64,000 bases of DNA from contig NZ_CP083583.1 in assembly GCF_020091585.1 (NCBI RefSeq), forward strand, positions 1,054,001 to 1,118,000. The letters run 5' to 3'. Under the pieces are notes generated by a model. The model saw only the letters and a program-made list of their open reading frames with translations. It was not told where the DNA came from and did no database searches. Positions 3,486 to 19,602 of the stretch are shown one piece after another. The translations under genes and the position numbers were made by a program. Within the stretch, counting starts at the first letter, position 1. Each line of letters begins with the position of its first letter. This DNA is from Kovacikia minuta CCNUW1 (GTDB lineage: Bacteria; Cyanobacteriota; Cyanobacteriia; Leptolyngbyales; Leptolyngbyaceae).

Positions 3486-3853
3486 GCAGATCTCCCCAGA
3501 TAAGAGCGTAAACTATCGCTGCACACCCGTGTCATTTACTGTATCCCCTGAACCAAGAGGCTTTGTGATGTTGTGCTCACTCGCCACAGGGATCTCAGCC
3601 TTCTATGACATTTCTGCTAGGAAATCGAACAGCCGCGATCGCACCATTGATTGTGGTTTCCTCAATGCCCCGATTTCAAGCAATGACAACTTGAATATTT
3701 TGTCTGTTTTTAGAGAACAGTAATTGTCGCCATCCATCATGAGCATCCACTTCTATCTCACCGGAAACCCCCCTCCAGGCACTCAGCCAGGAACCCTTTA
3801 TTCTGCCTCCCTCTCGTTTGGGGCAAGGGTTTTATCATCAAGTGCTGAACCTT
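3486..3853. other. intergenic stretch, no convincing gene
   Basis: About 370 bases between the hypothetical gene and the IS630 element. A short in-frame peptide begins around 3604 (MTFLLGNRTAAIAPLIVVSS) and looks like a transporter or membrane-protein fragment, but it is under 30 codons and has no ribosome-binding site. I see no RNA gene or strong terminator here. Confidence 0.4.
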
Positions 3854-9909: not shown

Positions 9910-10122
9910 ATCTCCTGCGTGCAAGTTTTGAGAGCATTGCGCTTTCTCAGTTACTTGTGGCGCTCCGCTGGTGGGTTATTACACACTCTTTCAAGGATGG
10001 CTACTTCTAAGCCCACCTCCCAGGTTCTTTGCACTCCCCGTTCACAAGCACCCACTGCTTGCAGTGGCATGTTTCCTCTCGTACTTGTATGTAGGCTCTA
10101 CAGATTAGGGCACGCAGGAGAT
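9910..10122 (-). ncRNA. Y-RNA-like element 1
   Basis: On the minus strand the ends form a perfect 13-bp stem (ATCTCCTGCGTGC with GCACGCAGGAGAT), then an internal loop with CCTAATC on the 5' side and AAAACTT on the 3' side, a short AGAGC/GCTCT helix and TACATAC. The same layout recurs in five other places in this module. About 170 bases between the arms hold further hairpins, for example CCACTGC/GCAGTGG. The architecture matches Ro60-binding Y RNAs, and a Ro60 gene lies 1.8 kb upstream. The 3' strand contains the ribosome-binding site of the next gene. Confidence 0.75.
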
Positions 10123-11078: not shown

Positions 11079-11807
11079 TTAGTGCCGCGTTGTAGGCATC
11101 AGCCACATCCCCGGTCGCTCTAGCCAGTTCCTCACTAGCGGTTCTGGAAGACGGTTTAACAGCTTGAGCATATCCCAGGTGTTGACCTTCATGGCTTTGG
11201 CTAACTCCTCTCGAATGCGATCGGTGCTAACCGTAGCCATCAGGTCAGGTAGTTCTAGGTTATGCAAAGCTTCCTCCAGATCCGGAGCCAAGCGAAAACC
11301 CAATTTGACCGCAAAGCGCACAACTCTCAGTGCCCGGAGCGGGTCATCTGCAAGTGTCACCATTGGTGGCAAAGGTGTTCTCAATACCCGTGCTGCCAAG
11401 TCGGTTCGTCCGTTAAACAGGTCAATCAGTTCTCCTGTTTCAGACTTTGCCAAGGCATTCACTGTAAAGTCGCGGCGCTGCAAGTCATCTTCCAGAGTTC
11501 CTGGAACAACCACTGGCTTTCGCGTTCCCGGTAAGTAATCTAACTCCCGCCGTGCCAGCACAAAGTCAGCCACCAATGCCTGGTGAGGCGGTGGAAACTT
11601 GGCACGAATTGTCAAGCAATCCTCTGTTTCCAGAAAGATTCTGAACCCTGCCTCCAGCATCCAATCTTTCATGAACTGAAATGCCTCATGGATCTTCTTG
11701 TCCTGTGCCTCGGTGGGCGTGAGAACAAACGAGAAATCAGCATCCTTGCTTTTGATTCCAAGCAGTTCATCCCGAACTTTGCCACCGACTTCAAAAATTT
11801 GTGGCAT
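11079..11807 (-). CDS. CCA-adding/poly(A)-polymerase-type tRNA nucleotidyltransferase, short form
   Basis: 242 residues with class II nucleotidyltransferase motifs: GGKVRDELLG (residues 8-17) followed by the catalytic D-A-D of KDADFSF, then RRDFTVNALA and DPLRALRVVRFAVKLGF. Full-length CCA-adding enzymes are about 370-450 residues; this one keeps the head and neck and lacks most of the body/tail. The start is the ATG after GAGGAGGTG. Many of the array tRNAs encode no CCA end, so a dedicated CCA-adding enzyme makes sense in this position. Repair of damaged tRNA 3' ends in concert with Ro60 is an alternative. Confidence 0.88.
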   Translation of the reverse strand: MPQIFEVGGKVRDELLGIKSKDADFSFVLTPTEAQDKKIHEAFQFMKDWMLEAGFRIFLETEDCLTIRAKFPPPHQALVADFVLARRELDYLPGTRKPVVVPGTLEDDLQRRDFTVNALAKSETGELIDLFNGRTDLAARVLRTPLPPMVTLADDPLRALRVVRFAVKLGFRLAPDLEEALHNLELPDLMATVSTDRIREELAKAMKVNTWDMLKLLNRLPEPLVRNWLERPGMWLMPTTRH

Positions 11808-11883
11808 GGTCTTCACCTCCTCACCAATAGTCTGGATTGGAAGGGGACTACCCACCCCAAAGAGATATGGCAGTCCCAACTTC

Positions 11884-13526
<1,643 letters not shown>

Positions 13527-13824: not shown

Positions 13825-13950
<126 letters not shown>

Positions 13951-13965
13951 CAAGTTAAATTTGCG

Positions 13966-14106
13966 ATTCCACACAAGTTAGGAAAGCTATTGATACATTC
14001 AGATGCTCTACTGATTGAGCTATCACCCCAACCGGAGTAAGCAGGAGTCGCACCTGCAACCTTCTGATCCCTAAGTATGTAAGCTTTTCAAGTCAGGGCG
14101 CGGAAT
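13966..14106 (-). ncRNA. Y-RNA-like element 4 with circularly permuted tRNA module
   Basis: Ends pair over 9 bp (ATTCCGCGC with GTGTGGAAT). The internal loop is CCTGACTTG opposite CCTAACTT; the upper stem is AAAGCT/AGCTTT followed by TACATAC. The interior is a tRNA read from the anticodon 3' strand: TCAGA, T-arm GCAGG-TGCGACT-CCTGC, acceptor 3' strand TTACTCC, a GGTT loop, acceptor 5' strand GGGGTGA, D-arm TAGCTCAATCAGTAGAGC, then TCTGA closing the anticodon stem. All arms pair. This is the permuted arrangement described for the tRNA-like module of bacterial YrlA-type Y RNAs. Confidence 0.85.
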
Positions 14107-14113
14107 TGAATGA

Positions 14114-14604: not shown

Positions 14605-14609
14605 ATAGG

Positions 14610-14775
14610 TGGATCTGATCGGAATCGAACCGATCGCCTCCCGATGAGAATTGCACTCATCCCTCATACAAGTTCACAAAGCTGTTTTTGGCTTCTTAAC
14701 AGGAAGTTAGTATGTAAGCTTTGCTGGTTGGGGTACAAGGTGGTTTAGGCGCTCTGCCACTAGAGCTACAGACCC
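14610..14775 (-). ncRNA. tRNA/Y-RNA chimera (Y-RNA-like element 5 in a tRNA anticodon arm)
   Basis: The outer parts form a tRNA: acceptor GGGTCTG/CAGATCC (7 bp), D-arm TAGCTCTAGTGGCAGAGC, T-arm ATCGG-TTCGATT-CCGAT and the anticodon stem CGCCT/AGGCG. In place of the anticodon loop is a Ro60-type stem at 14662-14740: lower helix CCTTGTAC/GTATGAGG, loop CCCAACCAG opposite TGAACTT, upper helix CAAAGCT/AGCTTTG and TACATAC. A further hairpin, GATGAG-TGCAATT-CTCATC, lies on the 3' side. So the topology is inverted compared with elements 4 and 6: tRNA ends outside, Ro60 stem inside. It has no readable anticodon and probably cannot act in translation. Confidence 0.8.
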
Positions 14776-14783
14776 AGATTTGG

Positions 14784-14857
14784 TGGATTCTGGTCGGAGT
14801 TGAACCGACATCTTTCTGCTTGCAAGGCAGACGCTTTCCCAGTTAAGCTACAGACCC
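14784..14857 (-). tRNA. tRNA-Ala(TGC)
   Basis: Anticodon arm TCTGC-CTTGCAA-GCAGA, T-loop TTCAACT, CCA encoded. The acceptor GGGTCTG pairs with CAGATCC only if one extra A in the 3' strand bulges out, a small defect. The acceptor is almost identical to that of the neighbouring tRNA/Y-RNA chimera, suggesting common origin. Confidence 0.85.
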
Positions 14858-17161: not shown

Positions 17162-17296
17162 TTCTACGGCGTGCAAGTTTGAGAAGCTGTTTTTTTCAGC
17201 CTCCACGGTTGGCGGAGGCTGTAGGATTCGAACCTACTTCGCTGTTCAGGCGAGTGACCAGTATGTAGGCTTCTCGGATGAGGGCACACCGTAGAA
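17162..17296 (-). ncRNA. Y-RNA-like element 6 with permuted tRNA 3'-half
   Basis: Ends pair over 13 bp (TTCTACGGTGTGC with GCACGCCGTAGAA). The internal loop is CCTCATCC opposite AAACTT; the upper stem is GAGAAGC/GCTTCTC followed by CTACATAC. Inside is a permuted tRNA: T-arm GTAGG-TTCGAAT-CCTAC, acceptor 3' strand AGCCTCC then GCCA, a short loop, and acceptor 5' strand GGAGGCT; the D-arm is reduced to an A-rich stretch. The element's first paired base directly abuts the 3' end of tRNA-Trp, so one cleavage would release both. Confidence 0.85.
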
Positions 17297-17868: not shown

Positions 17869-18142
17869 AAGGTGGCGATTCAGTTTTCAAGGTGCAGGCT
17901 GCTGATGAATCAGCCGGAATTAGAAGAAGCAACGCCGTTCCAGGGTATAAGTTTGCTGAAGGTGGCGGAGTGCTTGCGTGTGTGGAATGGAAAAGGACGT
18001 TCCCTGATTCAATGCGTTGTCTTGAAGTGGCGTGGAAGTGCCAAGAAAATGAGCGGGTAACCACTCTAAGAACTTCAAGAGACCATTGTTTTTAGTAAGG
18101 GAGTGAGTGTTCATTGGATGGGCTCCTCTGTGTCTCATCTCA
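17869..18142. other. leader region between promoter and first tRNA
   Basis: About 270 bases with no supported gene. Translated frames here are short and show no family resemblance or ribosome-binding site. On the minus strand this would be the 5' leader of the tRNA-array transcript. Confidence 0.5.
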
Positions 18143-18192
18143 TACTACAAACATAATACAATATACTACAAGGTGTCAAGGGGTTACTACAA
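18143..18192 (-). promoter_or_regulatory. putative tRNA-array promoter with three 21-bp-spaced direct repeats
   Basis: On the plus strand TACTACAA occurs at 18143, 18164 and 18185, an exact 21-bp period (two helical turns). On the minus strand the same stretch reads TTGACA (18179-18174), then 15 bases, then TATTAT (18158-18153), a sigma-70-like promoter facing the array, although the spacer is short. The repeats flank and overlap both hexamers, as expected for a cooperative operator. The regulator is not identified. Confidence 0.6.
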
Positions 18193-18724: not shown

Positions 18725-19255
18725 TCAGGTGTCAACAGGTTGCTGTTCCTTCCAGAACTGCTCAGCGAACGCAATGGCAGGGTGCATCGGTGCTTTAGGT
18801 TTGGTTCTGAGTACCATTCCGGTTTCATGTAAGAGACGATCGCCCTTACTGGAATTGCACTTCTCACAGGCGGTCACCACGTTGTCCCAGGTGTGGGTTC
18901 CGCCTTTTGAGCGGGGAATGACGTGATCCAGCGTCAGGTGCTTGGTGCTGCCGCAGTACTGACAGGTGTGGTTGTCGCGACGAAAGACTTCCCGACGATT
19001 TACAGGAGGAACCTTCCAATGCCGCTCTGGATTGCCACTGGTCAAACGAATGTGATCTGGGATTTGTAGTACGACACTGGGAGAGCGGACTTCCCATTGC
19101 TGGGTGCTACTAAATTCCAGGGTCTCTGCCTGTCCGGTAACCAGTAAAACGATCGCCCGTTTCAGGTTTATTCGTGCCAGGGGCAAGTAGTTCTTAGAGA
19201 ACACCACCACCTGGTTCTGGAGTATGGGAATTTTCTGTCGCTGTTCGATCTGCAT
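18725..19255 (-). CDS. HNH endonuclease
   Basis: 176 residues. The C-terminal half holds a complete HNH domain: RRDNHTCQYCGSTKHLTLDHVIPRSKGG then CEKCNSSKGDRLL, with the two CXXC zinc pairs and the catalytic DHV/N/N pattern. The N-terminal half (LQNQVVVFSKNYLPLARINLKRAIVLL) is typical of the cyanobacterial HNH family with an HNH5-like layout. The ATG at 19255 follows AGGAG. HNH proteins of this kind are frequent companions of mobile tRNA arrays; a role in homing or mobility is inferred. Confidence 0.9.
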   Translation of the reverse strand: MQIEQRQKIPILQNQVVVFSKNYLPLARINLKRAIVLLVTGQAETLEFSSTQQWEVRSPSVVLQIPDHIRLTSGNPERHWKVPPVNRREVFRRDNHTCQYCGSTKHLTLDHVIPRSKGGTHTWDNVVTACEKCNSSKGDRLLHETGMVLRTKPKAPMHPAIAFAEQFWKEQQPVDT

Positions 19256-19267
19256 GGGTTTTCTCCT

Positions 19268-19308
19268 CAAAAAATAACCCCCGCCTCTGACGACCAGGAG
19301 CGGGGGTT
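19268..19308 (-). terminator. rho-independent terminator or attenuator
   Basis: On the minus strand AACCCCCGC pairs perfectly with GCGGGGGTT (19276-19308) and is followed by TTATTTTTTG. It lies between the small gene at 19331-19543 and the HNH start, only 13 bases before the HNH start codon, so partial read-through must occur if both are on one transcript. Confidence 0.8.
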
Positions 19309-19582: not shown

Positions 19583-19602
19583 AATACTACATTTGTAGTA
19601 TT
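19583..19602. promoter_or_regulatory. operator-like palindrome AATACTAC-N4-GTAGTATT
   Basis: Perfect 8-bp arms around ATTT. The half-site ATACTACA matches the TACTACAA direct repeats at the tRNA-array promoter, suggesting that the same protein binds both. It is 40-60 bases upstream of the first open frame of the module, near TAATAC, a possible -10 box on the minus strand. Confidence 0.6.

Follow-up and report, generated by a model that had tools for sequence, protein, structure and literature searches.

A tRNA-Ala-like body interrupted by a Ro60-type stem: an apparent Y RNA of new topology in a cyanobacterial tRNA array

On the minus strand at positions 14610–14775 of the analyzed 64-kb stretch of DNA (the window), we observed a tRNA body whose anticodon stem is broken by a Ro60-type stem together with a second hairpin. 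Related genomes have kept this arrangement, and the element, here called chimera C, therefore appears to be real and to represent a new kind of Y RNA by topology. The first-pass annotation had described a tRNA with a Ro60-type stem in place of its anticodon loop; that observation is real, conserved and correct in outline. The sequence and its comparison with other copies establish the predicted fold and show that it is conserved, that the element is packed among tRNA genes and that it is linked to a gene for a Ro60-like fold.

Chimera C runs from acceptor G1 at 14775 to the discriminator A73 at 14610, and was matched by the R1 model at 14606–14778 with 209.5 bits, the window copy being itself part of the model's alignment. 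The body consists of a 7-bp acceptor, a D-arm, a 5-nt variable loop and a T-arm. All seven bases of the acceptor 5' strand GGGTCTG (14769–14775) pair with those of the 3' strand CAGATCC (14611–14617), including G3-U70, which is the alanine identity pair. In alignment A2 of 18 full-length copies, the D-arm GCTC-TAGTGGCA-GAGC (14751–14766, with GG in the loop) is paired in 100% of cells and the T-arm ATCGG-TTCGATT-CCGAT (14618–14634) in 96.7%, with one pair changed on both sides. The window copy ends in A-CCT, and an encoded CCA is not universal among copies.

The interior opens from a short anticodon stem, in which CCT (14747–14749) faces GGG (14640–14642). Helix 1 of the Ro60-type stem has the 5' strand CCTTGTAC (14733–14740; 97.9% paired in A2, two pairs with changes on both sides), and helix 2 the 5' strand GCAAAGCT (14717–14724), a 5' motif common to the other Ro elements that is directly followed by TACATAC (14710–14716). 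At the apex lies a hairpin resembling an anticodon arm, CTTC-CTGTTAA-GAAG (14692–14706), with the loop CU-GUU-AA; it is paired in 95.8% of the A2 cells, with no double changes there and three both-side-changed pairs in the model-fitted alignment A3. The 3' strand of helix 2 is AGCTTTGT (14676–14683; 96.5% paired). A conserved GAACTT joined to the 3' strand of helix 1, GTATGAGG (together 14662–14675), resembles the AaAcUuG of the Rfam YrlA consensus. A second junction hairpin, GATGAG-TGCAATT-CTCATC (14643–14661), absent from the first-pass description, is paired in 100% of cells with both-side changes in five of its six pairs, and its loop UGNAAYU resembles a T-loop.

An unconstrained minimum free energy fold of the minus strand reached -53.7 kcal/mol (z -2.89; 2 of 200 shuffles were equally good) and contained the acceptor, the D-arm, the T-arm and both Ro helices. 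The outer tRNA halves claimed earlier are thereby recovered, with all seven acceptor pairs, and the Ro60-type stem at the anticodon position is borne out both by this fold and by the 18 full-length copies with covariation.

Two details of the earlier description had to be modified. The anticodon stem had been given as CGCCT/AGGCG. Only four inner pairs of that stem could be counted, because the C of the fifth is used by the D-stem, and these are paired in 84.7% of the A2 cells versus 100% for CCT/GGG, whose third pair occurs as UG, CG, UA and GC across copies. One pair of the longer stem (31/147) is changed on both sides in 2 of the 18 copies, in its favour, and is unpaired in five. The totals for the whole structure are nearly equal under the two registers (15 versus 14 both-side-changed cells, nine pairs each). 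On the aligned sequences, CCT/GGG is the better reading of the anticodon stem; with it, AGGCG becomes an ordinary 5-nt variable loop (GGG and the loop together, 14635–14642). The element had also been said to have no anticodon. This holds for the normal place, whereas the anticodon-arm-like apex carries CU-NNN-AA in 18 of 19 non-nested copies and varies among those only at the anticodon letters (CTGTTAA in 16, CTTTTAA and CTGCTAA in one each, and a different loop in G047:C37).

A search for similar chimeras elsewhere had been proposed, and it brought matches. A covariance model scored at least 60 bits at 26 places, which are spread over 19 of 388 genomes of the cyanobacterial class and over four families. 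The next-best match had 57.2 bits over 80 nt, an ordinary tRNA length. At E 0.001 or better, the model matched in 96 of the 388 genomes, as a tRNA or a Ro stem by itself already satisfies part of it; we counted the 19 at 60 bits or more, and the part of the weaker matches that was inspected consisted of tRNA-length or Ro-stem-only matches. The class-wide scans scored two, four or seven candidates per genome, so the genome counts are lower bounds. An exact 31-base core was carried by Myxacorys, Pantanalinema, Scytolyngbya, Stenomitos, Microcoleus sp. FACHB-1515 and Oculatella (7 stretches), and one exact pattern searched among viral contigs gave no matches.

The base pairs are retained while the sequence changes. 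In A2, which holds 18 of the 19 non-nested full copies and leaves out L138, a copy with an internal deletion (G168), the nested copies and the C2 family described below, 97.6% of 825 cells over 46 pairs were paired. When the partner strands were slid out of place, pairing fell to 39–46%. Nine of the 46 pairs change on both sides, as compared to 1.9 in shuffles (sd 1.0; none of 500 as high). Alignment A3, consisting of the A2-type copies, two nested copies and one further copy (21 in total), gave 14 of 46 such pairs; it was fitted to the model, and its counts therefore lean towards the model. G3-U70 is G-U in 20 of the 21 copies in A3, the exception being a copy with an insertion. Most full copies are 92–97% identical to the window copy, and copies at 75–80% identity keep the helices with compensatory changes. 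A second copy in the window's own genome (G000:C1) has 24 extra bases between the T-arm and the acceptor, and the genome with the deleted copy holds only Ro60 fragments.

We also surveyed 133 Ro elements in the loci examined, some of them overlapping (L035 and L139 are the same element). Nineteen passed a test for flanking tRNA halves, one of which (L129) looks like chance, and the test missed two true copies, L027, which has an insertion, and L138. Of the 27 copies taken for parsing of the acceptor, three (G000:C1, G002 and G168) are described from the sequence instead.

The first-pass annotation had named, as grounds for doubt, that the outer halves might not pair or might belong to two unrelated RNAs, and comparison between copies speaks to this. 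Within family C, covariation of acceptor pairs was never seen, so the C acceptor pairs alone say little. A sister family, C2 (G002, G227 and G091), keeps the plan of the chimera with a different interior. Its acceptors are GGGTCTG/CAGATCC in G227 and GAGTTCG/CGAATTC in G091, both with 7 of 7 pairs; three pairs are changed on both sides and G3-U70 is kept. The acceptor thus changes on both strands and stays fully paired, which argues that the outer halves pair across the insert. The third member, G002, has 6 of 7 pairs when parsed without gaps, with one extra base as in the array tRNA-Ala, and G3-U70 is present in two of the three C2 copies in the ungapped parse. The support for the acceptor is conservation plus the C2 family, that is, one compared pair of sequences; together with the covariation in the 18 copies of family C, it carries the case for the chimera as a predicted structure. 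Covariation of the C2 anticodon stems was considered as well. TCTGG/CCAGA in G227 and TTTCG/CGAAA in G091 have 5 of 5 pairs each, and were not counted, since the sequence alignment sets them off from each other by one base. The C2 chimeras (L025 5009–5230, L140 609–828 and L139 5472–5690) share a conserved inner hairpin, GTGCC-...TTGGTTGGAGGGYGGGA...-GGCAC. Rfam gave nothing credible for the L025 copy, with tmRNA at 10.7 bits.

ARAGORN identified 33 tRNAs in the window and made no call at 14610–14775. Compared with a tRNA, chimera C has an acceptor, a D-arm and a T-arm with canonical pairing, and lacks a 7-nt anticodon loop on a 5-bp stem, the stem being broken by the Ro stem and hairpin. Its upstream neighbour is tRNA-Ala(TGC) at 14785–14857 on the minus strand (ARAGORN; R1 match 45.3 bits), which is the probable source of the outer body. 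At 13 of the 20 loci examined, the chimera begins 4–11 nt past a tRNA, which is tRNA-Ala in 12 of them. By this gap, the chimera as a whole keeps the spacing of a tRNA gene. At two more of the 20 loci the upstream neighbour is a C2 chimera. As a separate observation, the 3' strand of the array tRNA-Ala, CAGAATCC, extends against GGGTCTG one base beyond the need of a 7-bp acceptor, and the letters CAGAATCC also lie upstream of most chimera copies.

When introns were allowed, ARAGORN found the outer body in all three C2 copies, in 1 of 15 other non-nested copies and in neither of two nested copies. In the array this mode made five calls, one of which fused the 5' half of tRNA-Ala to the 3' half of chimera C, and it made none in the other 58.5 kb of the window. 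We regard the evidence from this mode as weak.

In three genomes (G231, G297 and G335) the chimera is nested, so that the outer body and Ro stem enclose another, complete tRNA, which ARAGORN types as Ser(UGA) or Cys(GCA). Contig C2 of G297 and the Dolichospermum flos-aquae plasmid pAfl69 (L046) have the same match coordinates, are probably one record and were counted once. In G335 and in the Dolichospermum plasmid, the nested chimera is close to Ro60, and no tRNA was called immediately beside it in the stretch examined. The nested forms suggest that chimera C originated when a Y RNA of the usual layout came to lie within a copy of tRNA-Ala, and that the inner tRNA of an ancestral nested form may later have shrunk to the apical hairpin.

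The Ro60 gene of the window lies 1.3 kb downstream of chimera C on the same strand (11884–13317, minus; 477 aa). In the protein sequence, Pfam TROVE had no match at E up to 1, Pfam vWA_Ro60 reached E 0.019 with 15.3 bits versus a cut-off of 27.7, and a sequence search of the PDB gave no match. Since proof by sequence profile failed, fold comparison was used instead. An AlphaFold2 model was built from 23 homologues (mean pLDDT 77). Foldseek ranks 1–12 were all Ro60, with E-values from 4e-10 to 5e-8, including D. radiodurans Rsr and a protein of Thermus phage phiLo. VIA-align gave Z 18.1–19.9 against Ro60 over 419–436 residues; the next rows were unrelated proteins with Z about 13, aligned in the vWA part only. 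According to the modelled structure, the 477-aa protein is a divergent Ro60 with the full-length fold.

Chimera and Ro60 occur together. Ro60 matches were obtained in 40 of the 388 genomes, several of them fragments or weak. Among the chimera genomes, 18 of 19 had a match, as compared to 22 of 369 others (Fisher p 5e-19, kinship ignored); three (G168, G227 and G262) have Ro60 pieces only, and two (G231 and G297) a split match. The chimera is located no more than 3 kb upstream of a same-strand Ro60 match in 16 of the 19 genomes, the match being a fragment in G047, G168, G227 and G262, and in G011 and G192 the two are on different contigs. In genome G025, a single contig rated 100% complete, the chimera is present and Ro60 gave no match, an argument against strict dependence. 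Among 72,556 plasmid records, the sole record matching this Ro60 was also the sole one matching the chimera (E 1e-5; near relatives of the window's genome were possibly excluded). Directly downstream of Ro60, at 11079–11879 (minus), lies a gene for a short protein of 266 aa resembling the head domain of a CCA-adding enzyme. It was considered as a conserved partner and set aside, as it adjoins Ro60 in no loci but L025, L026 and L043, the last of which is a fragment locus; the count covers the stretches examined, several of which end within 2 kb of Ro60.

The genome comprises 8.56 Mb in three contigs, with the window in contig C2. Its cyanobacterial origin is read from its relatives, namely plasmids of Nostoc, Calothrix and Tolypothrix and the named cyanobacteria that carry the element. 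On the minus strand, the order is two TGTAGTAT boxes (18142–18149 and 18163–18170), the tRNA array, several Ro elements, the Ro60 gene and the CCA-enzyme-like gene. The window contains four TGTAGTAT boxes versus 0.83 expected. Passages of PMC10272220 describe such a box at the promoter of the trn operon of Anabaena, where it is protected by the repressor TrcR; TrcR also controls rtcB, and the operon is switched on by translation-targeting antibiotics. By analogy, the array of the window may be regulated like the Anabaena trn operon. Two facing TGTAGTAT boxes were also seen at 19584–19601, upstream of an HNH gene (18725–19270, minus), and the HNH endonuclease gene all8564 of Anabaena is listed among the genes raised in a trcR deletion in the same parts of PMC10272220. 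A match to a group II intron domain was observed at 3505–3680 (minus; RF02001, 51.8 bits, gathering 32).

The other Ro elements of the window described here are all on the minus strand. Two sequences that pair with each other, AAGCYTACATAC and AGCTTNNNNAACTTG, form a motif that is repeated both within the window and at the Ro60 loci. The element at 13827–13948 (usual orientation; R1 local match 26.1 bits) holds a tRNA-Met(CAT) call by ARAGORN inside its stem, at 13852–13924. Its neighbour at 13961–14107 (outer limits approximate) has a permuted tRNA-like interior of the YrlA type, and the full Rfam YrlA model matched 13980–14087 with 32.7 bits, below the gathering value of 69. In both elements the Ro stem is outermost, with the tRNA-Met call or the permuted tRNA-like fold within. 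As stated in the first-pass annotation, the topology of chimera C is the inverse of these neighbours, whose Ro stem holds the RNA ends. Further elements lie upstream of the Ro60 gene (13377–13525; motif pair, limits approximate) and in the upper part of the array (17167–17291; R1 local match 31.8 bits). An element at 9910–10122, with a 12-bp helix 1 of ATCTCCTGCGTG/CACGCAGGAGAT, encloses a segment resembling 23S rRNA (RF02541 model positions 1081–1156; 55.1 bits, gathering 50; 49.5 bits for the stretch alone), which is probably the GTPase-associated centre. In a search of 194 genomes, matches of about 200 nt were obtained in, among others, G002, G047, G010, G133, G162, G174, G092, G140 and G154, and the shorter matches from this search are probably real 23S genes.

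Chimera C would count as a Y RNA in the wide sense, as it has two helices flanking an internal loop that contains AACUUG and is encoded beside a Ro60-fold gene. It gave no match to Rfam YrlA (RF02553) at E up to 5. Like YrlA, it has a Ro60-type stem in which one internal-loop strand is AACUUG-like, it contains a tRNA-like part, and its gene is close to Ro60. The two differ in topology: the Ro stem of YrlA is formed from the RNA ends with a circularly permuted tRNA-like domain beyond, according to passages of PMC8394870 and PMC11472068, whereas the predicted ends of chimera C form a tRNA acceptor and the Ro stem would lie inside. The same passages describe that the basal stem of YrlA tethers Rsr while the tRNA-like domain binds PNPase (PMC8394870), and that YrlA superposes on tRNA with circular permutation (PMC11472068). 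An Rsr-like gene paired with candidate Y RNAs is also described for a Listeria phage in part of PMC12282133.

The likeness to tmRNA (RF00023) consists of a tRNA-like domain and a long RNA replacing the anticodon arm. The tmRNA acceptor likewise has the alanine-type G3-U70. Chimera C differs from tmRNA in its complete D-arm and in its insert, which is about 100 nt long and includes a Ro60-type stem; identity with tmRNA was rejected, as the full-length match to RF00023 was weak (15.3 bits versus a gathering value of 47). In the engineered tRNA scaffold, as presented in passages of PMC3753655, an RNA of interest is placed in the anticodon arm of a body with acceptor, D-arm and T-arm; the scaffold is man-made, whereas chimera C is natural and conserved. 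The nearest designed object is thus the tRNA scaffold, and the nearest natural ones are tmRNA and YrlA. The trn operon of Anabaena PCC 7120 (TrcR regulon) is similar in its long tRNA array and TGTAGTAT promoter box, and the main text of PMC10272220 contains none of the terms 'Ro60', 'Y RNA' and 'tRNA-like'. In the open-licence literature, to which our search was limited, we found no report of a Ro stem inside a tRNA body.

We consider it fairly probable that chimera C is a natural tRNA-scaffolded Y RNA, which is excised by tRNA processing and tethers Ro60 to a tRNA-like handle. The locus would encode one RNA of about 166 nt. Its outer halves would form the tRNA-Ala-like body, and the anticodon stem would open into a three-way junction carrying the putative Ro60-binding stem and the short T-arm-like hairpin. 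The RNA would be co-transcribed with a putatively stress-induced tRNA array and excised by tRNA end-processing enzymes, which would also give it stable CCA-type ends. Ro60 would then bind the internal stem. Finally, the tRNA-shaped body would serve as a handle that brings Ro60 to tRNA-handling enzymes, with processing, CCA repair and possibly AlaRS or a nuclease as candidate targets. The description of the acceptor as aminoacylatable-looking is borne out in the sequence, by G3-U70 and A73.

The excision and the binding of Ro60 are common to this explanation and to one in which the tRNA body frees the Y RNA from a long precursor, protects its ends and has no later role. That more modest function is possible, if on the doubtful side. 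The chimera is packed like a tRNA gene and engineered scaffolds work in this way (in passages of PMC3753655), and set against this are the nested chimeras without a directly adjoining tRNA call in G335 and the Dolichospermum plasmid, and G3-U70 kept in the single copy with a changed acceptor (G091). The main functional rival, which can overlap with the preferred explanation, is a decoy or competitive inhibitor, in which the Ro60-bound tRNA body with its anticodon-like loop baits nucleases or toxins that attack tRNA under translational stress and so spares the genuine tRNAs. The CU-NNN-AA apex, with its variation restricted to the anticodon letters in those 18 copies, would suit such bait, as would the tRNA or 23S piece carried by other Ro elements of the window; moreover, TrcR of Anabaena controls the trn operon as well as rtcB (parts of PMC10272220), and a decoy role was once suggested for YrlA (passages of PMC7790460). 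The anticodon letters are, however, nearly fixed (GUU in 16 of 19), which makes for a narrow target at best, and G047:C37 has a different loop. We judge the decoy unlikely.

Two further explanations were weighed. In one, a Y RNA gene was inserted by accident in a duplicated tRNA-Ala gene and is now decaying, its apparent conservation reflecting recent spread. The near identity of most full copies, the internal deletion in G168 and the insertion in G000:C1 fit such a history, yet the divergent copies keep their helices with compensatory changes, the chimera is found in four families, and the C2 family repeats the plan around an interior of its own, G091 also having another acceptor. Because of the covariation, we regard an accident as very improbable. 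In the other, the insert is an intron: after its removal the two tRNA halves are ligated, with RtcB as one candidate enzyme, and a tRNA that can decode results. The insert is indeed located in the anticodon arm, and rtcB belongs to the regulon of the trn operon in Anabaena (parts of PMC10272220). Inspection of the alignments revealed no consistent U33 or anticodon in the joined loop across copies, on which grounds this reading was rejected, and the second hairpin would stay in the product. We know of no bacterial splicing endonuclease for such a stem, and the probability that the insert is an intron is close to negligible.

In a wider and more speculative reading, which as a whole is rather unlikely, Ro60 is the hub of an RNA display in which one Ro stem presents whole tRNAs, a permuted tRNA, a 23S piece and an inside-out body that can be charged with alanine. 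The chimera would be an aminoacylated Y RNA with tmRNA-like ends, carrying Ro60 into translation or tRNA repair under translational stress.

Chimera C turns the described plan of bacterial Y RNAs inside out, with ends of the tRNA type, and in the nested copies a tRNA would sit in a Y RNA that itself sits in a tRNA. What the laboratory tRNA scaffold does by design has here a counterpart in nature. If the proposed explanation is true, the tRNA machinery makes, and perhaps also charges, an RNA for Ro60, and the role of tRNA mimicry in bacterial Y RNAs would become testable by the change of a single acceptor pair.
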